Of a DNA stretch of 64,000 nt, positions 6,535-54,942 are shown in pieces; within the stretch, counting starts at the first letter, position 1, and each line of letters begins with the position of its first letter. A program made the translations under genes and the position numbers. Location: positions 42,954,551 to 43,018,550 of the forward strand of contig NC_054872.1 of NCBI RefSeq assembly GCF_018320785.1, read 5' to 3'. The stretch comes from Cheilinus undulatus. Its lineage: Eukaryota; Chordata; Actinopteri; Labriformes; Labridae. The notes beneath the pieces are model-generated. The model did no database searches, was not told the origin of the DNA, and was given only the letters and a program-made list of their open reading frames with translations.

Positions 6535-16135
<9,601 letters not shown>

Positions 16136-27219: not shown

Positions 27220-28150
27220 ATGAAATTGTATCAGGATTTAGAGGATGCTAAGGCCAAAAGAAAGGTACGTGTACTCTTTAATCCTTCATGTATTATTGTA
27301 TATTTTTCTTAATTTATATTGTCTCTACTGAATTGTATTTTCCACATGTTAATGGATTGTAAGGGAACTGAAAGATTTTCAGTCTCTTTATACTAATAAA
27401 ATACATGATCTTGTTTTGGTCTGGTAGAGTCTCAAACCTCAGGTGGAGAGACGTCGTAGAGAGCGAATGAACCACAGTTTGGAGAGCTTGAAGACTCTTC
27501 TGCTGCAGAGACAGGTAAAGACCACTGTGCTCAGGTGGCCCATGTGTTTGTCAGTAAATGTTTAGCCTTTATGTTTGGGCTGGAAACTGTGCATTTACTC
27601 GTTTTTTCTGTCGTAGGAGGCAACGCAAAGGAGAATAGAGAAAGCTGAGATCCTCGAGCACACCGTGCTCTTCCTACAGAGGTCCGCCAAAAGAGACGAG
27701 ACGACAGCTGGAGACGGCGGCGGAGGGCAGACACATTCCTTCCAGGACGGCTTCTCCACTTGCCTGCAGAGAGCTGCTCACTTCCTGGGACCAGAGGGAA
27801 AAGGCCTGTGGCTCGGAGCAGCACTAGATGCGTCTTTCGCTGCTCGTTTTCCCCGTTCAGACTCTGATTCTGCAGCAGGTTTCCAAAGAAAAGCTGAAGA
27901 TCATTCCTCCTCCAGCTCTCAGCTTCTAAAGAAGACGTCCAGGTCTATTCTGCGGTCACTGATAGACAGGTCCGGGTACAGAATCTGCACGCCAGCCTTC
28001 AGAGGGGCCAGTTCTGTGAAGAGCAGTGAACAATCTATTCGCTCTCCACAGACCCCCCAGCAGCCCCACAAAGTATCGAGTCGAGCGAGCAAACAGAGCC
28101 CGCCTCAGAGCCAGTCTGCCAGCCACACTCTGTGGAGGCCCTGGCCCTGA
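27220..28150 (+). CDS. Hes/Her-family bHLH-Orange repressor (second of two)
   Basis: Exons 27220-27264, 27428-27514 and 27617-28150 give a 221-aa protein with the same three-exon plan and phases as the gene at 20.2 kb. The order is MKLYQDLEDAKAKRK, bHLH with the usual Pro in the basic region (KPQVERRRRERMNHSLESLK), IEKAEILEHTVLFLQR, the Orange-type stretch STCLQRAAHFLGPEGKGLWL, a Ser-rich tail and WRPWP. Much of the Orange region is nearly identical to the first gene, so the two are tandem duplicates about 6 kb apart on one strand. The role is transcriptional repression with Groucho/TLE in the nucleus, and the family is typically Notch-controlled. It is HES7/her7-like, but I cannot assign an exact orthologue. 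Confidence 0.93.
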
Positions 28151-31050: not shown

Positions 31051-31718
31051 CTAAAGGGCTGTTTGTGTGGAGTCAGCATTGTTGTTTGACCTCTCACCTC
31101 TTGATTTCTGCTCTGAGTTTGATGAATTCACTGCTGCTTGTTCTGCTCTGCTTGGATTATCCCCATTTACGAATGGTGGGCGATCTGACTGAGCGGCAGC
31201 ATCTGTGGGAGGAGAAACAACCACTCTTTCTATGGGCTCATGGGCTAAGTTGTCTGTTACGATAAGATAATTTGGCTCAGGCTGTGGGGCACTGGAGCGA
31301 CGCTGCAATGCATGCTGAGTGCAGGAAAAAGAGCGCTGCCGAGGGGCTGGCTGGGGCGACAGGAAGTGAGGTGTTGCGGCTCTGGGAGCTTCCTGATGCC
31401 TGTCTCGGTCCTCGTCTTCTGAGGTCACTTCCTGTAAGGTGCTGATGGGCCGAGGTGAGCGGCCCATGACTCTTGGAGGGACCAGCGCTGTTGCTGATTG
31501 GTTGAGCTGTGGCCGCCAGTTCTGAGGGGAGGGGTACTGAACCCGGCTCATTGACCAATCACTGGCAAGACAAGATGGTGATAGTAATATCAGACAATGC
31601 ATAGAGGCTTAGAGACATAGAGGTCTGCAACAAAGACAACAAAAACAACAAAAAATTGATGTTGGGCATGATTAATGCAGAAAAAAAGACAAGCTTCAAC
31701 AATAGTCAGAAAGTTGTA

Positions 31719-31761
<43 letters not shown>

Positions 31762-34700
31762 TTACTAATAAATGAATTAATTTATCATACAAGTAACTCA
31801 TGTGGAGGCTATGGATGCTCTGAGAGACAACTAAGAAAAAAAGCTGATGATCAAAACTTTCCTCTCTTATTTTGACTGAAGCTCAGAGAAGGAAAGGTGT
31901 TTTTCAGGTTAAGAGGTTAGTATTTTTTATCAGTTAATACAATTATTTTCCCCCTTTTTGAAATAAGCACAGTGTTCATAGGTCCAAATAGGAATGTGTA
32001 TGATTGGCCAGCAAAACAATTAAAATCGGGTCCCTTGGTGATCGGCAATTTCCTAATGCTTTGTCTAATCTGTAACGCAGCCACCTACCACTAGTTGCCA
32101 CTATAGCTCCAGTCAGTGGCTACCACCATACTGTCATAAGGCTTTACAATCTGGATAACAAGCACAGTAAACAGGTGGCATAAAAAATAAAAATAACTGG
32201 ACTTAGTCCAAACACGCCCTCAAGGAATTTTATTTGGCACACTTGAATGCAGGGCTGTTTCCTGCTATATACAGACTATGCAAATGCATGGGGTTCATAA
32301 GGCACTGAGGGGCCCCAAAGCTGAATGTTCATCTTCATCTGAGTATAATTAAAATGACCTGTCTTTATCCCTTATATGCTTAAAAAACTGTAGGATATTG
32401 GAATAAAATAAACCTCAATGATTGTTGTTGTACAGATGTCTACTATGTCATCGGCCAGCGGAAGTTATTTCTCAGATATTTGCCACTTAACGTTACTTTA
32501 GGATAAATCTATTAAGTGTAGTGTGCATTTTACAGGCCTAAAATAAATAACACTGGTTATTTATTAAGTGACTTACAAATATTAAGCCTGTTGTTGATTA
32601 TTTTGGACTATTGTGGCAGTAGATTGTTGCTTTGAGTGGATTTCTGCTAGTTCAGCTGAGTTAGTTAGTGAGCTAGTTTGAATAATTCTGCCTCCATTCC
32701 TACAGCTGAATAAAGTTATTGATGTAGTGCTTTGTTTTATTCAGAAGAACCATAACATCATGAATGGAAGTAAGTGTAATGTAAACGATGCTATTTATGA
32801 CATTAGCTCTGCCCACAGAAAAAAATATAGGTTAAGAGCATAAATAATTTAATATGAGAGGTTATCATGACTATAGCCTGTTTTGGGCATTAAGTGTCGT
32901 AGATTGTGGCATGTTTGTGGATCATCTAATGAATTAGGAATCTCTACATCGTAGTTTAGCAAACTAGGGGCCCTCAAACAGCATCTTGCGCAGGGCCCTG
33001 ACAAAGCTAGAAACAGCCCTCCTTGGATGTGATGATAGACCTGCTCCACAATCCCCAATCAAAGAATGCTCTCTGTATCCATTCTCCGTGCTCATATTCA
33101 ACAAGATCCTACAGGAGATGTGTCACATGTTGCTGTTAGAATCATTCACTGTGAAATCATTATTGCTGTCAATAATTGTAGTTGTAGTTGTTGGCCTATT
33201 ACCACACATATGCACCAGCGTGCAGAGAGTGCGTGCTGAGCCATTACGCAGTTGTTTGGGGGAAAAAACACTCATCTCCAACCAAATTGGCCCAAATGCA
33301 TTAAGCATCTAATGATGAGGACGGTAACAGCATGGCATGAATAGAGTTAAGATTAGCCTACTGTCTGCAAGAGCTGATGAAAGTGAGCTGCAGTTTATAT
33401 GATGCACAAACTTTCCAGAGACCAGGAAGCAATTTCACCTTTGCATGAATTAAAAATAAATGATGTGTAAATAAGGTAGATAAATATCATTTAAACTTTG
33501 CTATTATTAAGCTATAACCAGGACTTAAATCAGTCAGAGGTTCTCAGCTGCTTTTTTTATCCATGTGTAGCACCATTACACATGATGAGGATCTAAGTGT
33601 TGTGGTTGTTTTCTCAGAGTTTTCCTTTATTCAGGGACAAAACTTTGTCAAGGTGGTGCTTAAATGAACACATTTCTTTACTGAAACGCACTGTCAGTTA
33701 TTCTGAATATTTAACATGGATTGTCAGAATCTGTGTGGGATGTGGGTGGGACTGGACACACCTTTTGCACGTGTGGACAAGAGTGGATGACAAGCACTGC
33801 TGGAATGGGTGGTAATGGTTAATAATCAAATGGGAGCGGGTGGATGTAGGATTTACCCCTTAAAGCCTGAAAACACAAATTATAGCCAGAAAATTATATA
33901 TTTTTTGGCACTAAAATGATTTTTTTTAACTTTCTACTGAAATCCAAAAAAATCCAAACTTCCATAAAATTTGACATATATATTTTTTGTATCTCATTTG
34001 ATACATGAGGTGTTTTTGGTAACTGATAATCCACTTGAGGGCATTTTTTGTCATTTATCAAATTTTATTCAGAAGTTTCTTTTAGTAATTTATTGATCAT
34101 ATTGATTAGATAAAGGTATCATAAAAGTATGTATCAAATATGACACAACAGGCTTTAAGGGGTTAAGAAAAGAGTCCCATGCAGGGCTTTACTGTAATGT
34201 TCTTGTCGTGTTGAAAATCTTTGGTGCAAAATGTGCTTAAGACTAGTCAACTAGGACTTCCGGTTGAGCGCTTCAAAATGGCGGTGTAAAGGAAAAATTC
34301 TCCTGGTCGACCAAGTTGAAATCCCCACCAAAACACGAATTTTGGGTTGACTTGACACTATACTGATCTAAGATGGGTGGAGGTAAAAACAAGAAATCTA
34401 AAAATCAAGAAGAAACACAAGAACAGGACAAAACGAACGATAACCAAACCGACGTGGTGAGGATGGAGGCTAACGGTGAGGACGGGGACTTGAACGCAGT
34501 TAAAGCTATACAAATTCTGAGCACGGACATACAAGATCTAAAAAAGGAGCTTAAGCAGCAGTTATCTGACTTCAAAAATGATTTTAAGAATGACATCAAA
34601 CAAGAATTCAGCAACTTTAAAACGGAGATGACTCATAAGCTACAAAGTATTGCTGCTGACGTTCGCAACCATGGCACAAGGCTAACCGAAGCTGAACAGC

Positions 34701-37700
34701 GGGTAGACGAAGCAGAATCAACTAACACGGAGTTAAGGGACGCTTTGCTGCACTCTTTAAAACAACAAAAAATCCTCCAAGCTCAGGTAACGGACCTAGA
34801 AGGAAGGTCACGCCGTAATAACATACGCATATACGGCATTAAAGAAGGCACGGAGGGTAGCTCAATGCTAACATTCATCGAAAAGTTTCTGAAGACAGAA
34901 CTTCCACTGGACATGAACACCGACTTGCTCATTCAGCGAGCCCACCGGTCAGTTGGCCCGAAACCCCGAGATGAAAATGTCTCAAGATCCATTCTGGTTA
35001 ACTTCCAAAGATATGACACTAAGGACAAAATTCTCAAAGCGGCATGGGCAAAGAAGATCACTTGCGAAGGTAAAACGGTCTCATTTGCACAGGATTTTCC
35101 CACCGAGGTTAATAATAAACTGAAGGAATACAGAGACATTAAGAAGATTCTTAAGGAGAAACAAGTCCGTTTCCAGACACCATATCCTGCAAAGATGAGG
35201 ATTCACTGGGAAAACGGAGCATGCCTTTACAACAGTGCAGCTGAAGTAGCCCAGGATATGAGGAAGCGAGGCTACTCTGTGGACCTGCCGAAGACAACCG
35301 ACCCGGACTGGGAACAGAGGCTCACACAAGGCGCACACTGGAACAAGAAAGACGGAGATCACGCCGAACGAGTACGATCGAGGCTTAAGGACTTTGAAAG
35401 ACCGCAAGTATAAAACATACAAACGAAAAAGACTGAGGTATATGAGGATTTTTTTTTCCATTTTTCATTTGCTTCAACACTGACTAGTAATATTATGTTA
35501 CAATCTTCACATACACATTAAACACACACCTGAGTCCCCAGCTGCTGCTGCTGACCCACACAGATACATTACACATACATATACAAATACACACACCCTC
35601 ATCACCAGTGATGATCATTTAACTATCAATATGAACACTCCAACTCACCTTTACTTTACATGAACATGCAGATAAATATGGGAATTTATCTTATTTTATG
35701 ATCAATTAGTGACTGTTACATTATAAATCCCCGTGGTAAATAAAACAATAATGACCGGGAAGAAAAGAAAAGAGATGGAATGATTGGCTCAACGATAAAG
35801 GACGGTTTGCTGTTTGCAAAAAGGGAGCCCCTGCATGATGTAGGACTGATCCTCCACCTGTACAGAAAGGGTCTTGTGAAGGTAATAGGGCAGTGTAAGT
35901 CCCTGAAGTTGGAAGTCATTTATGTAATAATTCTAAACGTGATTATTGTTCTTGTTTCTTTTACAGTTCTCTTTTTATGTTGATGTTGCCAGTACAGTTA
36001 AACTTACCTTAATCATGGAGTTTAATAACTATAGAGTAGTTTCCTGGAATGTAAATGGTTTGAATAATCCAGTGAAAAGGAGTAGAGTCATGTCAAAAAT
36101 GAGAAGGGAAAAAAACCAAATCATATTTCTACAGGAAACGCACTTATCCCAAATGGAGCATGAAAAATTAAAAAGATTTGGATATAAGAACACATTTTAT
36201 AGTTTCTTCAAGACAGGTCATAAAAGAGGGGTCGCTATATTAATTCATAATTCAGTTAATTTTGAACTTGTTAGGGAGATCAGGGACAGTGATGGCAGAT
36301 ATATTTTAGTACAGGGCAAGTTGGAGAATAAATTGATCACCTTGTTTTGTGTTTACTTGCCTCCACAAAGTGATCTCAAAGTTATGAAGAAGATTTTGGA
36401 ACTGATGGCTTCAGAAACACAAGGAATATTATTATGTGCAGGAGACTTAAATACAATAATAAATAGAAAACTGGATACAACTAATAACAAGAGGACTGTG
36501 TCCCCTTTGACAAAATTACTGAGGAAGGGACTGAAGGAAAATGGACTATTTGATGTTTGGAGGGATTTACATCCTTTAGATAAAAGTTATACCTTTTACT
36601 CAGCCCCCCATGCAGTATATTCTAGAATAGATCATGTCTTCATGTTTCAAAATGACAGACACAGGATCCTCAGTTGTGATATTGGAACCAGGGACATTTC
36701 AGATCATTCACCAATTTTCCTAAAGTTACATTTAGATAACAGGCCAAAGAAAACCACTTGGAGATTAAATACCAGTCTATTGAACAATAAAACAGTTATA
36801 CAGCAAATAAAAAAGGAAATTCAGACCTTTTTGGAATTCAATGATAATGGTGAAACTAATCCAAACATACTGTGGGACACCCTAAAGGCAGTAATAAGAG
36901 GAAAATTTATTTCTCTTAGTACAGCAATGAAAAGATCAAAGGAAGAAAAACTTAAAGAACTCGAAAATAAACTAAAAGAATTAGAAAGACAACATAGTGA
37001 AGATAAGAACCCTGTAACAATGCTTAAAATTCAAGAAACAAGAACCCAAATTTTGGATATATATAAGGAAGATATCGAGAAAAAATATAGATTTCTTAAA
37101 CAGTCTTATTATGAGGTAGGTCCAAAAGCTACTAAACTATTGGCTAAAAAAATTCGTAAAAAGCAGGTGTCACAGTCAGTGTTTAAAGTAGAGGATCCCA
37201 AAACAGGGAAACTATACAGTGACTTAGATGAGATAGACACTGCATTTCAAACATACTATCAGGCACTTTATTCACAACCAAAACAAGGATGTAAGGAAAA
37301 GATAAAATTATTCTTGAATTCATTAGACCTTCCTACAATTGGAGAACAGCAAAACAAATGCATTACAGCACAAATTACAATGAAAGAATTAGAGACAGCA
37401 TTAAAAAAAGTAAAAAATAATAAGACACCAGGAAGTGATGGTTTACCAGCTGAATGGTACAAGACATTTAGAGAAGAGCTGAATCCAGTACTCCTTAACT
37501 CATTTAACTGGACACTGGAAAATCTATCTACACCACCTTCCTGGGCTGAAGCTATTATTTCAGTTATACCTAAAGAGGGCAAGAGTAAAACACTGTGTAG
37601 TTCATATAGACCAATTTCAATTTTAAATCAGGATTATAAACTGTATGCTTCAATTATGTCTAAGAGGATGAATTCCTTTGTTTCTGATCTAATTGACACT

Positions 37701-40700
37701 GATCAGACTGGATTCATTCAAGGTCGCCAAGTACAAGATAATATTAGACGCTCTCTTCATGTAATACAAAATCTAAGAGAAACTAAAACAAGTGCTGTGC
37801 TAGCCAGTCTTGATGCTGAGAAAGCTTTTGACTGTGTTAGTTGGGATTATTTATTTCTGGTTTTGGAGCGATTTGGCTTCACCAAAAAATCTATCAATAC
37901 TATTAAAATATTATATACTGCTCCTACAGCAAGAATTAAAATAAATGGCCGTCTCACCGATCGGATCAGATTAGAAAGATCCACTCGTCAGGGATGTCCC
38001 CTCTCACCAACTCTTTTTGCACTCTACATTGAACCTCTAGCACAAGCAATAAGAGAAGATTCTAATATTCAAGGAATTATGCATAATAACATAGAACACA
38101 AAATAGCGTTATACGCAGATGATATACTGCTTTATATTAATAATCCAAATGTCTGCCTACCTGTCCTTTTAGATCTCCTTGAGGTATTTGGTACATATTC
38201 AGGTTATAAACTCAACATTCAAAAACACAGTTACTAACATTTTCCTACAGCCCATCGACTGAACTTAGACAGAGACTTCCCATTGACTGGTCTCAAACAG
38301 CAATCAAATATTTGGGAGTGTGGTTGACATATTGTCCCAATGACCTATATAGAAAAAACTATGAAACTGTTAACAAGAAAATTAAGGAGGATCTTAGTAA
38401 TTGGTCTACATCATTACTTAGCTTTAGTGCAAGAATTGAAGTTATAAAAATGTCCATTTTACCTAGACTGTTATATCTGTTTATGTCACTACCAATTAAA
38501 GTCCCGAACAAACAATTCAATGAATGGGATAAGCAAATTTCTAGATTTATTTGGAACGGCAGAAAACCAAGAATAAAATATAGCACATTAATGATCAGGA
38601 AAGAAAAAGGTGGGATGTCTCTCCCCAACCTGAGGGATTATTATCATGCTGCTCAGTTAAAAACTGTATTTTTTTGGTGTGAAAGTGGATATGAAGCAAA
38701 ATGGAAGGAGATGGAGAATGAATTTAAAGGTATACCAATTCCAGCAATGATTGGAGACCATAAACTAATGTTAACCTACCAGAATCAATTGAATCAATAT
38801 GTCTCCTTCACTCTACATGTTTGGTTTGATATTATAAAACAATTACATCTATGGACGCAAATAAAACAACTGAGATGGGTGGCCTACGATACAGAATTTA
38901 AACCAAATAGTATGGATTGTGGGTTTAAGTATTGGACAAATAGAGGCATCACCGCTTACTGTAAAATAATGGAAAAGAATACATTGCACAGTTTTCAAAC
39001 ACTTAGAGAAAAATATGACTTGGAAAACTCAGACTTTTTAGATTTTTGCAATTAAGAAATTATCTCTCCAAAATAGTTAAAGAAAATGAGACAAATAAAG
39101 AACTTAGTGATATAATACAGTTAACTATTAAAGCATATAAAGGTACTACTAATTCGATTATTTCCAAATTTTATCAAGGGATCACAAACGGTAAAGGACA
39201 TACCACAAATTATATAAAAACAAGATGGGAGAAAGAATTAAATGAATCAATTACAAGACAACAGTGGGAAAATATGTGTGAAACTATATTCACAACCTCC
39301 TGTTCTATGTACTGGCGTGAGTTCGGTTGGAAAAACCATATCCGCTATTTTATTACTCCTAAATTACAGAGATATCGCAGAGCTGAGACATGTAAATGTT
39401 GGAGAAACTGTGGATGTGATGAGGCAGACCACCTACATATTTTCTGGAGATGCACTAGGGTACAACTGTTTTGGAAAGGTATTTGGACAATTATGCTACA
39501 GATTCTTGGACAGTTGTTCCCCTTGAATTTTACATCACTTTATTTAGGTGACGTACCTGAAGAAATAAAAGGATCTGATAGATACTTGTGGAAAATATTT
39601 ACAGTAGCAGCAAAAAAGGCCATAACCCGTAAATGGTTACAGATAGATCCCCCCACAACAGACAATTGGATCGATATTATTAAGGAAATTCATGAGTTGG
39701 AAAGGCTGACTCTCTTATTGAGATTGAAAAAAGACTTATACATTAAAAGATGGGCTAAATGGAAGCTATACTTGGAAGAATAAATAGCATCCCCGGTGGT
39801 CTGCCTTAGACACTTGTATTGTTACAATGCATGTACCGCTCCCTTAACATAAACTCTGATTATTTACAGCTGATTGTGTTAAATCCTCATTAGACTTGTA
39901 TTGAAATCTGTATTTTGATTTTATGTCTGGCAATGTCTTATTATGTTTTGGTGTTGTTTTTGATGTTATGTTTTTGTTGAAAAACAATAAAATATAAGTA
40001 TAAAAAAAAAAAGACTAGTCAACTAAACACCATTAATACTTTTGCATTTAACCAGATTGGAAACTATTTGTCCATAAACACCCCTTGTTCCAGTTTTGCT
40101 GTCTAATAAAAGAGACAAAAAGCAGCTTTACCAATTTGATATATTTTTTTAAAGATTTACTTTTGGGCATTTATTAGATAGAGGAGGACAGTGGATAGAG
40201 TCGGAAAGAGGGTCAAGAGTGGGGGAGAGACATGCGGTAAAGGGCCTCAGGCTGGATTCAAACCTGCGCCGCCCGCGCACATGGGGAGCGCCTTTAACCA
40301 CTAGGCCAGCTGCTCCCCTTGAATTTTTAACGCCCTTGCAAACACTTAACTCCTTACTTGATGTTGGGTCATAAAAACAGACACTTGCTCAAACTAAGTG
40401 ACAAAGAAGGAAATCCTATGTGAAATAGGATTTAAAGGAAGTTAATTTACTGAAAATATAAGTTAAATAATAATAGGACTATGTAAATCAGACAGATTAG
40501 TCATGAATGTGTGGATGACTGTGGTTAAGTGTTGTATATGGATTCATCCTTGACTTACTTTTGAGGAGGCGGGGTCATATCTCGATGGGCTATGATCCCA
40601 GAAAAGGAGGCACTCCTTCCAGGCAGGCCCTGTGGTCCACCCCATGGCGAGTACATCAGAGCACGCTCCTCCCACAGCATCTCATTGGCTGCTTCAACAG

Positions 40701-43700
40701 TGACGGGCCCTCTTTGAATCTGATGAGCCAGTAGGAGCTCTAGGATTTGGTGACGCATGCCTTCTCTGGCCACATCGATCGGACGCCGGCCTCTACGGTC
40801 ATGTAGCTCCAGATTGGCTCCATGGAGGAGGAGGAGTCTGGCTGTATCATAGCAACCGTGGAGGGCAGAGAGGAAGAGTGGCGTCTCGCCCTACGATAAA
40901 AGTAATTATTATTACAACTTTCTGTGATGTTTGGAGGATATTTAAAAGGCAGGGTCGGATCTTACTTTGTTGTCTTGCAGGTCCACAGCGGCCCCGTAGC
41001 GAATGAGGGTCCTTGTTAGGGAGAGGTGATTTACCGAGCATGCCCAGTGCAGGGCTGATCTCCCTGAGAGAGACAGTGTGAGTGGAGGGGAGGTGAGGGG
41101 AAGAAGGGAGGGAGTAAGTCAGCCAATGAACAACCATTATACAACAGAGTTGAGCCCAGATGGAGAAAGAGAGGGAGAACAGAGAGATGAGAAGTGGAGA
41201 TGATTACTTCAGCTGAAGGAGGAAGATGAAACAGAGAGAACAAGATAAAATGGGGTAAAGAGGAATGTATAGACAGAAAGACAGCTACAGCCAGGAGGAG
41301 TGTGAGCAGCAGAGTTAATATCACTCAAGTTTGAGCACATCAGCTTTGTTCAGAGTCAGAGGAGGGCAGCAGGGGATCTAGAGGAGGAGAGGAAGAGAAA
41401 GGCCATGAAGAGATAGGAATGAGCACAAGGTGGGAGAGGAGGGAAGAGAAGGGGTAAGTTACTCAACCCCTCAGAGTACAGGTGGCAGAGAATGACTTGA
41501 TCAAGAGTTGTACAGTTTTTACCCTTTGAAATAAGCTGTAGCCCATATCAAACCCTTACTTATCCAAATATTGCATAGAGTACTTAAGAGCATGGAAAAG
41601 TTTGTTTTTCCAGTGATTTTTTTGTTTTAATCTTGATAATAACGGCTTACAGCTCACAAAATAAAAAAAATCAACTTTCTCAAAATAATAGAATATTGGA
41701 GAGCTAGGGAGGACTTAGCACCTGCCACAGCGAAAACAAAAACCACCAGAATCTGATTTCCTGACCATGGCATTACTGTACTTGATTGGCCATCCAACTG
41801 GCCTAACCTGAACCCTATAGAGAATCTCTGGGGAAATGTCAAGAGGAGGATGAGAGACACAAGACTCAACAGTACAGACAGGCTGAAGGATGCTATCAGA
41901 GCAACCTGGCCTTCATAACACCCTAGCAGTGCCACAGGCTGATTGGCTCCATGCCATGTCACATAGATGCTGTGATATAAACAAAAAGAGCTCCAACCAA
42001 GTGCTAAGTGCAAAAACAGCATAATTTTTCAGAAGGTCAACATTTCTGTTTAATAAATCCTTTTTTTGATTGGTGTTTTGGTACTTTGGTACTGAGATAG
42101 TGGATTTTTTAATGCTATAAGCTATAAGCCATCAACCAATCATCAACATTAAAACAAAAAAAGGTTTGAAATATATAACTTTAACTGAGATGAATCTAGA
42201 GTATATGGCAGTTACACTTTTTGAATTACACCACAGGAAAAATGAAGTTTTTCATGATATTCAATTTGTTTTGAGTTGTACTAGTCTTTAACACTGCTGT
42301 ATCAGAGTTTACAAGGCTATTAAGTTAACTTCCTTCCTACCTTCTGACCTATATCAAACATAAGCTTACAGGAAGTTGCAATCGCTGATATCAAGATCTT
42401 TTTAATAGTCTGTTTCAAAGGTCAGAACTGAGCTGAGAAAAGGCATTTAAGTATGCTACAGTAAAACCAGAAGCTGAATGAGCTGTAGCTCCAGCATTTT
42501 GACTGTTTCTAGGTTTAAGTTAATGCATCTGACAGGGATATATTACCAGTGTGATCAGTGTTATTGACTGGTACTCCTGCTCTCAGCAGCTCCAGGACCA
42601 CCCTATCCAGGCCGCTCCGGACAGCCCGGATCAGAACCACAGAGCCATCAGGGCCACACCACTCTGCTGACTGCAAATACAACAAATGTATTATCAATAA
42701 AGAAAACACAGACATAAACAGAAAGAGAGAGCTTAAATGTGGTCTCATACAGTGTGGTCTGTGGTTATATATGAAACCTTCAGGGCTTAGTAGATATTTG
42801 GATAACAGCAAAGTTAAACATTAAATTCTCAAAATAATTGAACACTGGTTCTTCAAAACCTGTTGATAAAAGGACAGACCTGCTGTGGAGGACTGAGAAG
42901 AGGAGGAGGCATGGCATTTCTCTCCCATCCTCTAGGTGGAGCTGTGGGAGAATAAATAATTCAAGGTAGATGTCAGACTATAAGGCATTCTGATAATCAT
43001 ACAGTACAAAAATGTTTAGTTTGGGTTCAGTATGTCATCTTTTTTTGTTTGCAAAAGACACGCCATTCTTCTAAACAAATATCAATAACATTCAAGTGCC
43101 ACCATTATTTTCAGCATCAGGACACCCCAGAGTTTATTTTGCTTATATCATGGCCACTTACCATCAAACAAATAAAAATGTTGAAAATGCTGAAAATGTT
43201 TCAAGTCTTACACTGAGCAGATCTGCGTGGCTGGGAGTTCCCTCCTCTGTAGTGTTTCTGCTCGGGGCTGCGGTGGTCACAGATGGAGGCATCCTCGTGT
43301 CGCCGCGAACATCTTGCATTGATGTCTTCCATTGAACTCTGGGTAAAGTCCGTGTCACTTCCTATATCCTGGTCTCTCTTGAGAGGTCTGAAAAACAAAT
43401 TGATGTTTTGATACGGCACATAGGGAAACAGTTATATCCATCCTGTTGTTGCAGTGGTCACACACGGTGTGTACATATGCGTTAAACAAAGGTTGGAATT
43501 ATTCAGAGGTTCATTATTTTCAAACCATGACATGTAGATTTTCACAACTTTAGAATGTCAAAGGTGACTGCAGCAGTGGCCTAGTTAATTACAATACAAT
43601 CATACCATTTAGTTAAAAGCCCAAAGACACATTTCAATGTGCAAAAATGTTTTAAAAATGACAGGAAGAGGCTACAGTTTCCCTGAGCCAAAATCAACAC

Positions 43701-46700
43701 TATCTGTATGCTTGGTTTGTGTGATCACAGTCACTTATTAAAAGTTATTTAATATGTTTACAATTTTAAAATGAGAGAAAGAACATCAAATGTTTAAATC
43801 TAAATGTTTGACTAATTTCCAAATTGATTCTTAGCATATTTGAGCACTTATATTTGTCGTGCCTTGATTATAATCCAACCATGCTGGTATAGGACTTACA
43901 CTATATGGACAAAAAGTATTAATCAAACCCATTACCACATGTGCATAACATAAAGCACCTAGCCATCCAGTCTCCATTCGCAAACAGTTATGATAGAAAA
44001 TGTGTTGCTCTGAAGAAATCAGGGACTGTAAGCAGGGTACTGTGATGGATGCCACCTTTGCAAAAAGATGTTTTTTGATAGAATTTGAAAGTGGAAGCAT
44101 TTAGGAATAGCAGCAACTCAGCCACAAAGTGGAAGACCACAGAGTGGGATCAATGATTACTGAGGAGCAAGGTGCTTAGAGTCGCCAATACTTGATTCCA
44201 TAGCTGAAGAGTTCTGAACTTCCACTGGCATTAATGTAGACACAAAAACTGTGCCTGAATGGGTTTCCATGGCCAAGCAGCCACATGCAAGCCTCACATC
44301 ACCAAGTCCGATGCCAAGCATCAGAAGGAGTGGCCTAAAGCACTGAAGCCTGCTGCACCAGCTGTGCGTAAATTCTGTCTCAAGTTATGGTCTCAGGTCC
44401 ACCCTAAACTCTACTTTAAAACTATTTAAGATATAACTTTAGTTGTGTCATTGTTTGGTTGTTCTACGGAGACGAAAAGTTGATCTTAACTAGTAGATGC
44501 TAATATCCAATATTGTCGCAGATATGACATTTTCACCTAATTTACCCAATCAATGAACAGAATTTTTAACCCAGTGTTTGTTACAGCACTGCCTCTCATG
44601 TCTAATTGTCTCTAAACAGACTAACAGCTAAAATAAGTTGTGCTAACTGCTGTTATTCCTCTAACGGCATCCTGTGTGGATTAAAAACATGACAAAGCAT
44701 TTTGCCTAAAGCCATTATGAAATAATACTGACTTCGAGTGGTGAAATCGCTTATAGACATCAGTGCCTGACCTCATAAATGCTCTACAGAATGAATGAGT
44801 AAATATCTCACTATCACACCTACAGGGATTGTAATGATACTTTTGTCCATATAGTATGTGGATTATTGTTGGCGTTCAAAATGTCAATAAAAAAGTAGTT
44901 AAGAAGATACTGGCAAGCTGAAAGAAGCATGAAGCATCTCTAAAAATACACCATGACTGTGCCAGTCGTGAGGTAAACATCATAACCATCACCCACTTGT
45001 TACACTGATTTTGCTGAATGAATCTTTGTGCAGAAATGTATTTGGAAGAGGTAAGGAACATTCCTTGTAAAGCCTGGTAGAAAAGTCAGACATTTATGTT
45101 TGCAAATGTCCCTGAAATTTGGGAAATTTTCTTCAGTTTTTTGCAATTGTGAGAACACTGTACATTTAGTAAATTTAAAAAACAAATGCATGAATACAAT
45201 ATTCTCAAGGAAAATCACTGCAATCACAACTTTACAATGGTTCCATTGTTGTAGACACATGAGAAATAATACTACTTCATGTGAGGTGGAGAAGAGTTTG
45301 CAAATAAACACAGGACAAAGGTAATTTTCAACTGACAGACAGGAAGAGGGACCAGCCTTTTCATTAACTTTACAGGATGACCTCTAGCTTGTGTAAGTAT
45401 ACACCTTATTTTTCTACGTGACATCAGTCCTAAAGCAGACAAAACATCCTCTCAAAGACCTAATAAGCGTGTCCTCCCACTCACCGCATTCGAATGGCGT
45501 CCTCCCCCAGTGGTTCCCTCCTTCTCTTCTTCTCTGCTTCCTTCGCTTTCTTCTTTTTCCTCAAGCTGATCTTCTCTTTCTCTCTGCTCAATCTGACCCT
45601 TTGGTCTTGGTGAGCTGTGTGTGCTGTTGTTGCTGCTTTAGATTTGGGGTCACTGTCTGTGATAATGGACCGGTGTCTCACCCTGTGACCATCCTCCCTC
45701 TCTGCCCGATGCTGCCTCACCCTCCTCACCACCAAGAACGCCACCAAGGAGAGAACGAGCAGCAGGCCCAAGGCTATGGCTATCACCGCCCAGAGCCACG
45801 CTGGAGTTGGCTCTTTGAGAGGGAAAATACATATTAGAGTTGTGTAACATTAGAGAAATATGATTTTGTTTGAGAATTTTTCATAGTAATACCTAAACAA
45901 CAAAATAAGATGCTATTGGAGATGCTGCAAACTCCTATTCTTTTTCAAAATGACCATCATCACATCTGCACACTGGAAACAGAAAGGTGTTTATGTGCTT
46001 TGTTTGGATCAAATTCAAGCTGGACGTGTGTTTGTGGGTGTATTTGAGGAAGGACATGAGAGCCTACCTTTAACTTCCTTTATCACAGTATCCTCCTCCC
46101 TGCTTCCTATTTCCTCTCGGACACCTTTTATACTGATGACAGCGTTCAGCTCAGGACGGGTTTCGGATGACTTAGGCCTCCGCAATACAGCACGCAGGAA
46201 ATTGGCCGCCTCTGTGGCATATGGGAAACAGGTAGAGGGAAGACGGGAGCATGGCCTGTTGTCCACCTGGAGGAAAAGGAGGGAGCTAGCAAATAGAGAC
46301 AGAGTGAAACCAGGGAAAAGAAGAAGTACGTCATAACTGAGGCCTTTTTTCTAAAGCGCAGGAGTGTCAGGAAATCTTTACGTAATAATATCTGGCAGCT
46401 TCTTAATGATTTGCAAAAGTAACACCCTGTTTTTAATACTTTAAGCATGCATCCAGCCTAACTGGGCTCAAGCTCTGTCACAAAGAGCACAAAACGCCCT
46501 TTTATTTAAAAACATGTGCATGTTGCATATGCCTGAGGGCAAAAAGATCCAATATTGACTTTTGGCCTTGTCGTTGTGTACAGAGATTTCTCCAGATTCT
46601 CTAAATATTTCAATGCTTTTATATACTATAGATGGTGGAATACTGAAAGTCTTCACAATTTTATGTTGAGGAACATTTTTCTGATATTTTTCCACAGTTT

Positions 46701-49700
46701 TTAGACACAGTCTTTGGCAGATTGATGAACCTCTACCCATCTTTACTTCTAATAGACTCTGCCTCTCTAAAATGATACTTTTATGCCCAGTCATGTTACT
46801 GACCTGTTGCCAATTAACCTAATTAGCTGCAAAATGCTCCTCCAGCTGTTATTCATTGCTACCACTTACGTCGAGCCTTTCAATGCCTCGTCCATGCTTT
46901 TTTGAAATGTGGTGCTGCCATCAAGTTCAAAATGAGATAATAATTTTCAGAAAATGGTAAAATGTCTCATTTTATACATCTTATATGTTGTTTATGTTCT
47001 ATTGTGATGATTTGACAACCATTGCACTCTGTTTTTATTAGCATTTTACACAGCACCCCAACTTTTTTGGAATTGTGGTTGTAAAGAAAATTAACATAGT
47101 GCCACCTAGCCACGTTTTCTTTTGCTAGAGAAATAAAAAAGGTATTAAAATGAAAGTTGAGACTCAGTGGACTCCAGCAATACCACCCTTGTCATTGAAG
47201 TTTGTATTTTTGCAGTAAACATTTTTTTCATCGCAGATAACTCTGCTGGGGTCGAACTTCAGTTCATTTGCATGGTTGTCTTTGAATGGGAAATGTTAAT
47301 TAGTCTGGTTAATTTCTGTAAAAAGAAAAAATATATTTTTTTTTTATGATGTCAATCAAACAATCGATCAAGAATTTTATTTGTCCCAATTGAGGCAGTT
47401 CATAAGGGAGCGTAAGAAACATAAAGACACATAAAACATATATGAGTACATAAGAATGTGTAAGAGCACAAAAATACACATTTGAGCACAAAGTAAACAA
47501 AACTTTGTGATTAATTAATCACAAGGAAATTGATTAATTAATCACACTGGGCTGTCACAATGTGCAAAGTGCAAAAAGCTATCACTTCCTACTGGAGTTA
47601 GGAGAGGTGGCAGTAGGAATAAAGGAGTGTTTGTATCTACTGGTGTTGATTGGTTTAAGTCTGAGGAGGGAACCTGATGGAAGAAGCTCAAATTGTTGAC
47701 GTAATGGATGAGAGCTGTCTGACAAGATAGACTTAGCCATGTCTTACACCTTTTTGTTGTACAAATCCTGAAGAGGTATGCTAACAGATGAAGTGAGGAG
47801 AGCATGTGGCACCCTGTCTGATGCTTGCATGCTGTTTGAGATAGCATTTTAAGAATAGTGATTCTTAGAGCAGTGGTTCCCAAGCTACTTTCCTTGGAGA
47901 CCCCCCTACTTTTATCTAAGAAAAGCCGAGACCCCAAGGACCCACATATATTAAAAAGTGATAGATTGCTGTCAAAAATTAGCATCAGTTTTAATTGTTT
48001 TATGGACAAAAGCCTAAGAAAATAGGTCTACATTAGTATACTAAAAGACATTACTAAAAGCCATGATCTTAGTCAATAAATATATGCCCCCCCCCAGGTT
48101 GGGGACCAATGACCTAAGAGTGTGTCCATGTTTTTGACAGTCTGGCAAATATTAAGGTGAGTTTAGCCTGCTTTGTTTTACTTCCTAGCATTCCTCTTGG
48201 CCCACTTTTGTTTAAACTTTACCTACATAACCTAGATGTTAACGACCCTATCAAACCTACATATGCAACTTTGTCAGCCTGCAAATCTTTGTTCTCATCT
48301 GTCTTTCACAAACTATGGACAGTTTAATATGTTTGAAGTGTAAAAGTAACTAGCTTGTGTTTGATGCAGCATGCTTGAACTGTTCTCCAATGCTTGTTGT
48401 AAAGTGAGACCAAATGACTCTATTGTTAACTTTCCTTTTCTGCTGAGGCTGGACCAGATCTGCCTTGCAAAACAAGATTTCAGCTCCTGTGAGACTGTTT
48501 AAATACAGTTTTAATAAAAACAGGTCTACTTTGAAAGTTTCATACATTTCAACATGTACCTACCCGTTTGAGTCAGTCGGTGATGCCTGAGCCAGCATGT
48601 TGGCCAGCTGCTGAGCGTCAAAGTCAAACAAGTTGCTGTCAGGGGCGAGGGGGGCGGAGCCTCTCAGTTTAAGGGGTGACTGGAGGAGGACGCTGAGCGC
48701 CCAGAGCAGGGAGCTGTTGGAGAAGGTCCCACGTTGTTGTGGTATGTTGGCGTGAAGGATCAATGTGCCTTTGGCCCACAGGGGGCTCTGGTGCGTGAAG
48801 CAGTCACTGCCGTCCCATCCGCAGGGGCCGTTGTCACATCCCTGATCGCAGTGGGAGTTAGCATAGTGGTCGCGACAGTAAACGATGTGACTAGGTCTGA
48901 GAAAAGAAAAAAAACGAGATCTGCCTCAAGATCTTCATACTTGCTCCCCAGAGCTTAAGATGATCTTTTTTATTACAAAAGTCTAATGTGTAAGTTAACA
49001 ATAACTCTTCTGGTGGAAACGTACAAAAAGTTGTTTCAGGATTGTGGTTATTCTCTCCGTCTGACAAGGCTGATCTTCAGCAAACATGTGAAGTGGTACA
49101 AGATCAGCTTTGACAGTTGCAACTTATTTGCAGATAAACCAAACTCATGTACATCTTCAAAAACAGTAAAAAAGTAGGAGCTAGAAGTTTCTTATTCACA
49201 CCATCCACTATTAATGATGATAACAATGAATGTGTTTTACTTGCAGGGGCCTCCTGTCCTGTCCTTTAGGCAGTCAAAGCCATCTCTGAGACACACGGGT
49301 TCCATACAGTCTCTGTCACATGAGCCGTCACCAAACTTTTCATTACACTTTCTGCTGACTGGACACTTGCCCCAGGGATCTCCAGACGCTGTGGAGAAAA
49401 AAAGACACTAAGTTAGTGCTTACAAAAGTGTCAGCAATGCAAAGGCAATTTTTTTTTAAGCTGAGTTCATTTTCACTAGCCACACCCTCGGAGGATTACT
49501 GCCAGACCTGCTGAATCAAGAGATCACTAAACTAGAACCTGTTTGACAAAGTGAAGAAAGCCAGAACATCTCAAAAACCCACAAATCATGCTGCCATCTA
49601 AAGAAATTCAAGAACTGATGAGAAACTAAGTCACTGACAACCAATGGTCTGAAAAGGGTTACAAAGCCATTTCTAAGGCTTTGGGACTCCAGCCAACCAC

Positions 49701-52700: not shown

Positions 52701-54942
52701 ACCTCCTCCTCATGCTGGTCACCAGCCTGGTCACACACTGCTGTGGGATGGCATCCCATTCTTCAACCAGCATTTCACACAAGTCAGTCAGTGTGTCATA
52801 CAAGTCTCTGATGAACCCTGCCCTGTGGGGGCAAGTGTTATTTTGTAGTCTGGTCCCAGACTGTGGAGATTACCACTGGTTGCAGAATCTCATTTGATAG
52901 CTCTCTTTATTGAGATTGCTTCCAGTGATGACAAGCCTCAAATTTCCAGTGTGGGAGATGCCGCCCCACACCATCACACTGCTTCCACCAAAAGATGTTG
53001 GGCAGAGAGCCGGCAACCACATTGTCCTGAAAACCTTTACTGCAAATCTGTAGAAGACTCCTAGGTTCCTAAGTGCTGAAAGGTTGAGGAGACTACACTC
53101 TTGGGGTGTCATCTTCTTGGGACGCTTATGTTTCCGCCTGTCTCTAACACCCCCTGTTATATGGAACTGGGCCTTCAGTTTGGAGATGGTACTAGAGCTA
53201 ATTCCTACTTGGTTTTGCATAACACCAGCTTGAAGTTTCCCTATCCAGATCAGTAAAACGTAGCATATGGGTTCTTGGAGGAGACACCAACTTATTACTG
53301 TAGCAGGGCCCATGCTCACAGGGGCCAGAAGCTGCCAAAAGCTACCAGAAGCTCAAAAGAAGAGTCTACACAAACACTAGCATTGGCACAAAGGATTTGG
53401 CTAATTTTTCATGGGAGCAACCCTCATACTCAGCTCTACTGCTCATCCCACAAATGCATGTTCCTTACAAATGTGGCACCATTAACAGGGAAATAAACAG
53501 GCTTTCCAATGGTGTAAGATTTATTGCCAAGAAGCATTGTTACAACAACGAAATAATACGTTTTGTGCTAAGTATATACAGAAATAATAAAGTCGTCTCT
53601 CTGATAGCCTGGTTTGCTTTCGTAGGTTATACAGAAGGATCGGCACAAGTTTCTGTTTTCATTACCAGATTTGAAAGGAAATCTCATCACAGGAGTTTTA
53701 ATCTTTCAGAAAATTCTTTAAAATCCCTTTTGAAGATGAAACTTTCTACTAAATACTGTTTCTACCCACTCATTATTTTATTGCTGGTTGTATTCCACCA
53801 TTTTCTCCAGGTTTGATCTGTTATTCTTTTATCCAGTCCTTTTTTGATACATTCCTCTTAATCTTTTAAAAATCTAAACTTGTTGCTTGCTTTTTATTTT
53901 CTATCTCCATTTTTTTTATTTATTTTGTTTTTACTGTTGGAATTTGATGTTTTGCAAAGCACAATTAAAACAGTTGTTCTAACTGCTATACCAATAAACA
54001 TATTTATAAAGGATATATTTAGTTCTAAAAATCAATGCATAATGTATGTACAGTTTTGCATTTTCTGATGAAGACTATTATAGGAAGCAAAAAAGTGAAA
54101 AAAGAAGTGCATATTAAAGAAAAGATAAATTGTGCAACACATAGAAAAAACATTTGGTTCATGAAACTTCTTTACTTTTTCTTTTACTCCAAGAAAACAT
54201 TCTTGTCCACAAATAAATTAAAGTAAGATTCCCTTGTCAGTCATGATATTGTAGTTGAGGCAATGTAAATATGAAAGCTCCCCAAATCTCTTCCTTTAAT
54301 TGTAAAGGATTTTATTTGGAGTACAGTATTCTCTGAGCCTGTGTCTTTATGAGGGAAGGAGGTCAGAATTCCACTTTAACATGCTTTTAACTGGCAAGCA
54401 AAATACTTATTTATGGAGTTATTTATGCTTAGTGACTTAAAGTCTCCAAGGATCCACAATTTAGGGTCACTTAGGATGTTTTTTTCCCTAAAATTACTGA
54501 GGAAGTTTTGATAACATAACTCTAGAACTCTGAAATCACTGGACAAAGCCCTGGCATGTGTATAGGATCAACACTTGTGTGTGCTGTGGGTTTGTCAAAG
54601 GTAGATTTATATCAACTAAAAATCATATCTCTTTTCCTGAATAGGTTATTTAAGAGCTGTAGATAAAAGTGTAAAAAAAATGTTTTCTCACTCAAAAACA
54701 TTAAGCTGAATAGTCAGTCACTGGTGTAATTAAGAATCTACTGACATCAGTAATGTACAGTAATGCATCATTTTGATGCATGGGCCCTGGGGGCTCAGTT
54801 TTTTAGGTTTGGAGCATCTGCTGTAAACATCTTCTATGTTTTGTATAAACTAACTGGCGATTCAACTGTTGAAATTAAGCACAAACTCACCTTGACTTGT
54901 CCAGCTCAGCCCCAGCAGAACAAACATCCTCAGAGCCAACAT
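31051..54942 (-). CDS. Miniature Notch-like receptor lacking EGF repeats
   Basis: Eleven exons (54942-54891, 49388-49241, 48896-48564, 46285-46068, 45812-45485, 43387-43212, 42941-42880, 42670-42547, 41063-40966, 40890-40559, 31561-31051) have matching phases and give 793 aa. In order: signal peptide (MLALRMFVLLGLSWTSQA, about 1-18); two Lin12/Notch repeats (about 19-95) equal to LNR-B and LNR-C; both heterodimerisation halves (LWAKGTLILHANIP.., then LLFLQVDNRPC..CFPYATEAANFLRAVL); a transmembrane helix (AVIAIALGLLLVLSLVAFLVV) followed by RR; the block KKRRREPLGED; three ankyrin repeats (VLIRAVRSGLDRVVLELL, SALHWACSVNHLS, GETPLFLSALHGCYDTARLL); and a tail opening DWSMS. No EGF repeats, LNR-A, furin loop, RAM Trp-x-Pro motif or ankyrin repeats 1-4 are found. 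It is probably a membrane receptor-like protein; signalling ability is uncertain. An in-frame upstream ATG at 55209 exists, but 54942 starts a proper signal peptide. Confidence 0.88.
31721..31763 (+). repeat. (ATT)n microsatellite
   Basis: About fourteen ATT trinucleotides in a row, in the last intron of the Notch-like gene. Confidence 0.95.
32250..33021 (+). mobile_element. hAT-type non-autonomous element
   Basis: The left end is CAGGGCTGTTTCCTGC and the right end GCTAGAAACAGCCCTC, inverted repeats of about 12-16 bp. The flanking octamers CTTGAATG (32242-32249) and CTTGGATG (33022-33029) match in seven of eight positions. At 772 bp it has no transposase. It lies in the last intron of the Notch-like gene. 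Confidence 0.85.
34373..35413 (+). CDS. L1 ORF1 protein (nucleic-acid-binding chaperone type)
   Basis: An intact frame of 346 aa. A charged, Lys/Glu-rich N-terminus is followed by a long coiled coil (about 45-140, with heptad-like LKKELKQQLSDFKNDF and EAEQRVDEAE), then the RRM-like core typical of L1 ORF1p (GRSRRNNIRIYGIKEGTEG, about 145-225) and a basic C-terminal domain (about 230-320, IKKILKEKQVRFQTPYPAKM). In L1 elements ORF1p forms trimers that coat the element RNA. No break is visible. The start codon follows a 119-base leader. Confidence 0.92.
   Translation: MGGGKNKKSKNQEETQEQDKTNDNQTDVVRMEANGEDGDLNAVKAIQILSTDIQDLKKELKQQLSDFKNDFKNDIKQEFSNFKTEMTHKLQSIAADVRNHGTRLTEAEQRVDEAESTNTELRDALLHSLKQQKILQAQVTDLEGRSRRNNIRIYGIKEGTEGSSMLTFIEKFLKTELPLDMNTDLLIQRAHRSVGPKPRDENVSRSILVNFQRYDTKDKILKAAWAKKITCEGKTVSFAQDFPTEVNNKLKEYRDIKKILKEKQVRFQTPYPAKMRIHWENGACLYNSAAEVAQDMRKRGYSVDLPKTTDPDWEQRLTQGAHWNKKDGDHAERVRSRLKDFERPQV
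36015..39783 (+). pseudogene. L1 ORF2 (endonuclease / reverse transcriptase), broken by two frameshifts
   Basis: The first open segment (from 36015 to 38237) carries an apurinic-type endonuclease (VSWNVNGLNNP, QETHLSQ, AGDLNTI, RIDHVF, SDHSPIF) and a reverse transcriptase (KTPGSDGLPAEWYK, SYRPISILNQDYKLYA, GFIQGRQ, LDAEKAFD, RQGCPLSPTLFALY, ALYADDILLYI with the catalytic YADD). One frameshift near 38,218-38,232 and another near 39,030-39,045 move the rest into two other frames (to 39055 and 39046-39783). The last part has a Cys/His cluster (CKCWRNCGCDEADHLHIFWR), as in L1 C-termini. Domains are otherwise complete. As written, the element cannot make a full ORF2 protein. An ORF2 start further upstream at 35946 is possible but less likely. 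Confidence 0.92.
40143..40320 (+). repeat. Dispersed repeat, tRNA-like end
   Basis: The stretch has the blocks GAGGACAGTGGATAGAGTC, GGGGGAGAGACATGCGGTAAAGGGCC and GGATTCAAACCTGCGCCGCCC, ending in a CACTAGGCCAGCTGCTCCCC that resembles an inverted tRNA-like body. A reverse-strand relative is at about 56,860-57,000. Confidence 0.55.
41640..42070 (+). mobile_element. Tc1/mariner relic
   Basis: The plus strand encodes a decayed C-terminal transposase segment, DWPSNWPNLNPIENLWG at about 41,791-41,845, followed by VKRRMRD and interrupted by frameshifts and stops. This is the D-W-P..NPIEN-W signature of Tc1/mariner proteins. It lies in an intron of the Notch-like gene. Confidence 0.75.
43898..44857. 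mobile_element. Tc1/mariner-type element with ACTATATGGACAAAAGTAT ends
   Basis: The left end has ACACTATATGGACAAAAAGTATT (43898-43920). The right end reads GATACTTTTGTCCATATAGTATG (44836-44858), its inverted counterpart. The body of about 960 bp keeps only decayed transposase-like segments. These ends are familiar from fish Tc1-related elements. It lies in intron 5 of the Notch-like gene. Confidence 0.8.
46468..47090 (-). mobile_element. Tc1-like transposase N-terminal relic plus dispersed-repeat tail
   Basis: On the minus strand, 46794-46468 contains a transposase-like helix-turn-helix fragment (KMGRGSSICQRLCLKTVEKYQ, then KTFSIPPSIVYKSIEIFRESG), similar in pattern to Tc1 N-termini. From about 46,800 to 47,085 the sequence ends in the CCCAACTTTTTTGGAATTGTGGTTGT tail shared with the segment at 15.5-15.9 kb. 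Confidence 0.6.
47350..47870 (+). repeat. Probable dispersed repeat in Notch-like intron 3
   Basis: The stretch has the texture of a fish dispersed repeat (AATTTTATTTGTCCCAATTGAGG..; GGTGTTGATTGGTTTAAGTCTGAGG..), with no coding signal matching the gene. No ends or duplications were found. Confidence 0.3.
47872..48112 (+). mobile_element. Short hAT-like remnant
   Basis: It starts CAGTGGTTCCCAAG and ends TTGGGGACCAATGA, imperfect inverted ends of the CAGTGGTTCCCAA type. The flanking octamers TCTTAGAG and CCTAAGAG agree in six of eight bases. It contains a poly-C run. Confidence 0.5.
49500..50700 (+). mobile_element. Tc1-like transposon relic
   Basis: The plus strand translates to decayed Tc1 transposase: LPSKEIQELMRN, GYKAISKALGLQPTTVRTII and NLPRSRQPTK in the helix-turn-helix part, then HGGSLMVWGCFVASGP (about 50,030-50,078) of the catalytic region, with many stops and frameshifts. 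It is the same family as the relic at 17.2-18.2 kb and lies in intron 1 of the Notch-like gene. Confidence 0.85.
51434..51916 (+). mobile_element. hAT-type MITE with perfect 8-bp target duplication
   Basis: It starts CCGTGGTTCTCAACTGG and ends CCAGTTGAGAATTACTA, inverted repeats of about 17 bp with a few changes. The flanks are identical octamers GTATAAAG (51426-51433 and 51917-51924). It contains GCGACCCA..GACCCACCAG segments typical of this fish MITE type. It is non-coding. Confidence 0.9.
52600..53420 (-). mobile_element. Tc1-like transposon relic, internally deleted
   Basis: The minus strand at 53319-52870 reads as a partial transposase: STISKLKAQFHITGGVRDRR, RPKKMTPQECSLLNLSALR, then after a deletion or fusion FGGSSVMVWGGISHTGN and LNKESYQ. 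The N-terminal helix-turn-helix and part of the catalytic domain are present, but the catalytic Asp residues cannot all be placed. It is a different Tc1 family from the relics at 17 and 50 kb. Confidence 0.8.

Follow-up and report, generated by a model that had tools for sequence, protein, structure and literature searches.

Structure of the Notch-like gene

The window, which is the whole 64-kb stretch of Cheilinus undulatus DNA that was analyzed, contains a Notch-like gene on the minus strand, spanning 54942 to 31051. Rebuilt from splice sites, the gene has 11 exons (2382 nt), and its spliced frame comprises 793 codons plus a stop, with 0 internal stops. GT-AG boundaries were present at all 10 introns, and all phases match. 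The coordinates obtained were identical to those of a preliminary description of this DNA, which had claimed 11 exons, 793 codons, and matching phases.

Exon 1 (54891..54942) encodes a predicted signal peptide, MLALRMFVLLGLSWTSQ, and ends in phase 1. It joins in matching phase to exon 2 (49241..49388), which begins at the second Lin12/Notch repeat (LNR2, or LNR-B). This join between a phase 1 signal-peptide exon and an exon for the second LNR had been described before and was confirmed here, with LNR2 aligned to four paralogues. Exon 3 (48564..48896) carries LNR3 and the N-terminal half of the heterodimerization domain, from which the S1 furin loop is missing, and exon 4 (46068..46285) carries the C-terminal half of that domain (NODP) and an extended premembrane stretch. 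The transmembrane segment lies in exon 5 (45485..45812), which also has a Lys/Arg-rich insert where the W-x-P motif of RAM is expected and a conserved RREPLGED end. Exon 6 (43212..43387) links the RAM region to the ankyrin region, and exon 7 (42880..42941) is a further linker. Exon 8 (42547..42670) is the counterpart of the ankyrin repeat 4 exon, and the exon that normally encodes repeats 1 to 3 is missing; exon 9 (40966..41063) encodes ankyrin repeat 5, and exon 10 (40559..40890) encodes repeats 6 and 7 and the start of the tail. The remainder of the C-terminal tail and the stop are placed in exon 11 (31051..31561). An assignment of exon 8 to ankyrin repeat 1 was considered and rejected, since its length and exon end better match repeat 4. 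An AATAAA signal is found at 30793, past exon 11, and a second one at 40175, after exon 10, so that an earlier gene end is possible. Exons 1 and 11 are predictions, and the start or end of the gene could differ.

Features shared with other Notch genes of the genome

The gene keeps LNR2 and LNR3, the heterodimerization domain, the transmembrane segment, the basic RREPLGED stretch, and ankyrin repeats 4 to 7. Pfam recognized two LNR stretches, NODP (E = 2.5e-7), and ankyrin repeats in the protein; NOD was absent from the Pfam list. When the regulatory region was searched against PDB chains, the eight sequences recovered came from Notch1 to Notch3 only (Notch1, E = 9.8e-35; Notch3, 2.2e-33; Notch2, 6.4e-23). 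A genome search for LNRs, counting best candidates only, yielded 16 matches. C17, C21, C5, and C7 each had three, and the window and C23 had two each. The Notch exon frames on C17, C5, C21, and C7, followed from the final EGF repeats through the tail, have an ordinary Notch appearance and served as paralogues for comparison. The two C23 matches (C23:23706476-23706868) lie outside these Notch genes. Relatives were also sought in viral contigs (0 of 27 pattern matches).

Exon ends fall at the same residues as in the paralogues at five junctions (exons 2/3, 3/4, the end of exon 5, 8/9, and 9/10), as judged by eye on translated paralogue frames. The exon 2 acceptor falls inside what is a single LNR1-LNR2 open frame in the four paralogues, and the tail is split by an intron that the paralogue last-exon frames do not have. 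Identity to the paralogues in LNR2 is 16 to 21 of 45 to 48 residues. All 14 invariant ectodomain cysteines are retained when scored by eye (13 of 14 by script, the last one being gap shifted), compared with 31 of 56 of the remaining invariant positions there. In the ankyrin block, 47 of 99 invariant noncysteine residues are kept. The shared exon ends and the sequence similarity indicate that the gene is of Notch descent.

Absence of EGF repeats and further domains

None of the 15 Pfam families listed for the protein at E ≤ 1 is an EGF family. A hidden Markov model (HMM) was trained on 29 EGF repeats taken from the genome's own Notch genes and applied to frames of at least 18 codons over 114 kb, comprising the window, 20 kb on its low side, and 30 kb on its high side. 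The best score was E = 0.27 and no EGF repeat was found, whereas the positive control reached 7e-36 at two loci that themselves supplied repeats to the model. In tblastn searches that used LNR1, EGF, and ANK1-3 sequences from two or three paralogues as queries, only the gene's own LNR and ankyrin exons scored below E = 0.2, and relics of degenerate EGF, LNR1, or ANK1-3 exons were not found in the 114 kb. The absence of EGF repeats claimed in the preliminary description therefore holds, across the 114 kb by HMM and tblastn and in the protein by Pfam.

An assembly in which EGF exons of intron 1 were collapsed or dropped could give the same picture, since EGF arrays are repetitive and intron 1 contains repeats. 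We consider this very improbable. The gap that had been raised as a concern was looked for, and neither the window nor the full 114 kb contains an N, which makes a gap unlikely; the contig is 54 Mb long in an assembly of 46 contigs. Exons 1 and 2 are also in matching phase, and LNR1 would have to have vanished together with the EGF exons, yet it was not found elsewhere: of the 16 LNR matches (best candidates only), the four other Notch genes account for 12, and the remaining 4 are the 2 of this gene and the 2 on C23.

The reduction goes beyond the EGF repeats: LNR1, the S1 motif, and the exon for ankyrin repeats 1 to 3 are missing as well, as is the W-x-P motif of RAM. Two of three LNRs, the second and third, are present, and LNR1 is gone. 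The S1 furin motif R-x-[KR]-R does not occur in residues 1 to 254, whereas in the alignment all four paralogues carry a sequence of this kind at the S1 position (RKRREL, RMKREL, RLKREL, and RPKREL). Likewise, each of the four paralogues has LWFP or LWLP as its RAM W-x-P motif, and the aligned RAM region of the Notch-like protein has none. The sole W-x-P of the protein is NWRP at residue 639, in the exon 11 tail and outside the RAM position; the RAM motif has the form hydrophobic-W-hydrophobic-P, which NWRP does not fit. All four paralogues possess the ANK1-3 frame that is missing here, leaving repeats 4 to 7 of the seven ankyrin repeats. The tail is also short, at approximately 280 codons for exons 10 and 11 versus 412 to 542 codons in the paralogue last-exon frames. 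The preliminary description had spoken of a Notch regulatory region with no ligand-binding part. The second half of that statement stands with the missing EGF repeats, but the regulatory region is itself without LNR1 and the S1 loop, and on the intracellular side the loss of the RAM motif and ankyrin repeats 1 to 3 had gone unmentioned.

Natural loss of the S1 loop can be compared with engineered S1 loop-out forms of Notch1 and Notch2, which share that loss and reportedly keep EGF repeats, LNR1, RAM, and all ankyrin repeats. Because the regulatory region of the loop-out proteins is reported to stay folded and autoinhibited (PMC2726630), loss of the S1 loop alone appears to be tolerable.

Coding evidence

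In a looser scan for signal-peptide exons, the 14.6 kb upstream gave three candidates on the minus strand against a shuffle mean of 0.43 (60 shuffles), and only the exon at 54942 had a 9/9 donor. A strict scan that demanded the 9/9 donor gave 1 match per 400 shuffles of 6.1 kb and 1 match in the real 114 kb, both strands included. Under this stricter scan, whose threshold was chosen after exon 1 had been seen, exon 1 is unlikely to have arisen by chance. The exon 11 open reading frame (ORF) ranks 7th of 80 by codon score among ORFs of at least 100 codons, with another frame scoring slightly above the coding frame (0.32 versus 0.30). Overall, exons 3 and 6 are the only 2 of the 11 in which the coding frame outscores the other five, and the codon-score test by itself therefore gives little support. 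CpG enrichment was not found at exon 1, nor were paired RBPJ sites found in the 64-kb window.

These results bear on whether the gene only appears to be intact and is in fact decaying, NOTCH4 function having been lost recently in this lineage. The number of lost domains, the divergence in LNR2, and the weak codon score in most exons are what would be expected of such a gene. We nevertheless regard decay as improbable, given that the 793 codons are open across 11 exons with intact splice sites and phases, that the ectodomain cysteines are kept, and that salmon has a NOTCH(-like) gene listed at the corresponding position and zebrafish notchl is reported to be expressed (see below). As judged from the intact spliced frame and the kept cysteines, the earlier view that this is not a pseudogene is probably correct.

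Neighborhood of the gene and MHC synteny

Outward on the low side of the Notch-like gene lie two her-type genes, a PBX gene, a GoLoco gene, a DNase II gene, and a weak RGL2-like piece. The two her-type last-exon frames (27617..28150 and 20680..21216, both on the plus strand) each end in WRPW and are presumably of the her/hes type; Pfam, run on one of them, returned no significant family. They stand in tandem between the PBX and Notch-like genes and are identical at 102 of 164 aligned residues. The PBX gene (7439..12472, plus strand) has PBC exons at 7439-7522, 11436-11681, and 12278-12472 by Pfam. A PBX gene and two her genes had been named as neighbors before; the PBX gene was verified by its PBC domain, but the her names rest on the WRPW ends, with one frame lacking a Pfam family. 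The GoLoco gene (C8:42952153-42952972), which lies beyond PBX, has three GoLoco motifs, and beyond it is the DNase II gene on the minus strand (window coordinates -17417 to -16310; Pfam E = 1.3e-22 and 1.5e-11). The RGL2-like Ras-association piece is weak (E of about 0.007) and had no Pfam match. On the high side are TAP1, for which TAP1 chains were the best matches, and a bromodomain gene most similar to BRD3 and BRD2; two pieces of the latter gene were assigned to no family by Pfam.

This arrangement resembles regions of the major histocompatibility complex (MHC) in human and Atlantic salmon. A table of the human MHC class III region places NOTCH4 beside GPSM3 and PBX2 (PMC1309616), and the window reproduces this synteny when the names PBX2 and GPSM3 are given by position, the data themselves showing a PBC domain and GoLoco motifs. 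In Atlantic salmon, BRD2, TAP1, NOTCH(-like), PBX2, GPSM2(-like), and RGL2 are listed together in the MHC class II E region on chromosome 2 (PMC4810163), a set of neighbors that matches the present locus, weakly in the case of RGL2. BRD2, TAP1, PBX2, and RGL2 are also described as linked in salmon in a second report, whose main text names no Notch (PMC4219347). The suggestion of a reduced Notch4-like locus is thus well supported by TAP1, the BRD2/3-type gene, PBX, the GoLoco gene, the weak RGL2-like piece, and the salmon region.

Identity of the gene

Because its neighbors match the salmon MHC region with NOTCH(-like), PBX2, and RGL2, we read the gene as a teleost NOTCH4 ohnologue that is real but radically reduced, and we hold this identity to be very probable. 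Across the genome, PBX genes share C21, C7, C5, and C8 with Notch genes and also occur on C13 and C4, where Notch is lacking; C17, with its Notch gene, gave no PBX match. GoLoco genes occur on all five Notch-bearing members of this set (C21, C7, C5, C17, and C8) and, without Notch, on C13, C22, C4, and C10. Notch, PBX, and GoLoco genes lie close together only on C21 and C8 and are megabases apart on C7, C5, and C17. We interpret this distribution as what is left of four ancient blocks, of which NOTCH4-PBX2-GPSM3 is the fourth.

The same distribution allows that the gene is a teleost duplicate of notch3. The C21 Notch gene, which by our reading of its LNR pattern is notch3, lies with GoLoco and PBX genes within about 260 kb (C21:26.89-27.14 Mb), mirroring the trio of the window. 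The DNase II neighbor points the same way; its human relative is, we assume, near NOTCH3, so that the block is not a pure NOTCH4 block. HD-C also slightly favors C21 (20/44 versus 19/49). Against this, identity to C21 is not raised in LNR2 (16/45, versus 21/47 for C17) or in the ankyrin repeats (59/136 versus 58/139). In one exon the PBX gene of the window matches C21 PBX at 55/78 and C7 PBX at 59/78, and in a second exon C21 is level with three others (59/65). The adjoining TAP1 is an MHC gene. We therefore consider a notch3 duplicate improbable and retain the NOTCH4 ohnologue as the identity.

The locus is already described in part, since NOTCH(-like) is listed in salmon and in situ data exist for zebrafish notchl, a Notch-like gene reported to be expressed in the dorsal aorta and intersegmental vessels (PMC9338088). 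We take notchl to be the probable orthologue of the present gene. Searches of the open PubMed Central literature showed no title or abstract describing an EGF-less teleost Notch. The presence in a teleost of an intact Notch gene where NOTCH4 would be expected implies that NOTCH4 predates the teleost/tetrapod split. If the identity is correct, it contradicts a zebrafish survey that called NOTCH4 and PBX2 absent, with NOTCH4 given as absent from both zebrafish and fugu (PMC1309616), or the view in a 2023 paper that NOTCH4 is known in mammals only and is of debated origin (PMC10277265). That mammal-only view is already weakened by an entry for chick notch4 in a table (PMC10859470) and by the mention, in an axolotl paper, of NOTCH in the class III block of caecilians (PMC12619710).

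Proposed function

Compared with mammalian NOTCH4, in which EGF repeats are accompanied by three LNRs and seven ankyrin repeats, the Notch-like gene has no EGF repeats, two LNRs, and four ankyrin repeats. The explanation that we favor overall, with a probability of roughly 0.55, is that of a reduced NOTCH4 ohnologue with a modulator role. The product would cross the membrane once. Its signal peptide would be followed by two LNRs, a heterodimerization domain that has lost the S1 loop, and the transmembrane segment; inside the cell it would carry a basic stretch resembling a nuclear localization signal and, of the ankyrin repeats, no more than the last four. Without EGF repeats, Delta/Jagged cannot pull such a protein open. 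LNR1 is part of the S2 cover in known structures, and in its absence the S2 site is probably less covered, so that shedding may be ligand independent. The RAM motif and ankyrin repeats 1 to 3 are needed for the usual RBPJ complex; because the W-x-P motif and these repeats are missing, the usual RBPJ-Mastermind complex should not form.

We tentatively propose, at somewhat less than even odds, that the gene encodes a ligand-blind, noncanonical, and likely inhibitory Notch protein. It would modulate, and most likely dampen, full-length Notch receptors in the same cell, by competition for proteases, trafficking, or partial ankyrin partners. The site of action would be the arterial endothelium, as suggested by the zebrafish notchl expression, if the gene is expressed similarly in C. 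undulatus. The main rival to a brake of this kind is a receptor that signals independently of ligand, being shed constitutively or mechanically and releasing an intracellular part that would enter the nucleus and act through non-RBPJ partners. The kept transmembrane segment and RREPLGED basic stretch, together with the loss of LNR1, would suit such a receptor. The loss of the RAM W-x-P motif and ankyrin repeats 1 to 3 speaks against it. With these parts missing in addition to LNR1 and the S1 loop, an ordinary ligand-independent receptor is less likely than a modulator, and we consider it unlikely.

What is reported for mammalian NOTCH4, which shares the neighbors GPSM3 and PBX2, bears on a dampening role in both directions. 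Endothelial expression has been reported, and inhibitory behavior was described in a macrophage line, in which NOTCH4 lowered CBF-1 activity (PMC8671160). Elsewhere, inhibition of Notch1 is assigned to the NOTCH4 extracellular domain, and the NOTCH4 intracellular domain is reported to activate RBP-J transcription (PMC12375735). Both reports count against a brake here, the former because most of the extracellular domain is missing. Searches of the open PubMed Central literature found no paper testing notchl function.

A fuller account, which we offer with more reserve than the inhibitory mechanism, is that NOTCH4 was not lost in teleosts but remade as a separate type of Notch protein. It would no longer sense Delta/Jagged and would lack the RAM motif through which RBPJ is engaged, and it would have persisted for hundreds of millions of years alongside antigen-presentation genes, as a brake or mechanical switch in arteries. 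Without its ligand-binding part and the parts that activate the usual target genes, yet with an intact frame, the gene may encode a Notch protein that has ceased to act as a normal receptor. If so, it provides a natural test of a Notch remnant without ligand binding or the main transcription-factor motif, and since notchl can be removed in zebrafish, such a remnant is open to genetic test.

Mobile and repeated sequence

Intron 10 contains, at 34367..39783 on the plus strand and outside the gene proper, what is, from its motifs, presumably a non-LTR retrotransposon, with an ORF1-like frame followed by a broken endonuclease/reverse-transcriptase-like frame. In intron 1, a frame at 52873-53352 (minus strand) resembles a piece of what is presumably a Tc1-type transposase (WGGISHTG). 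Beyond the gene, two related open frames lie on the minus strand at 57892-58872 and 60351-61091 and share the motifs QKQLRMEGK, FWQCM.WAQR, and MFLSTLGIGEWSVLNWAQ. One of the two was run against Pfam and had no significant match; together they resemble a repeated family, perhaps one derived from a transposon.
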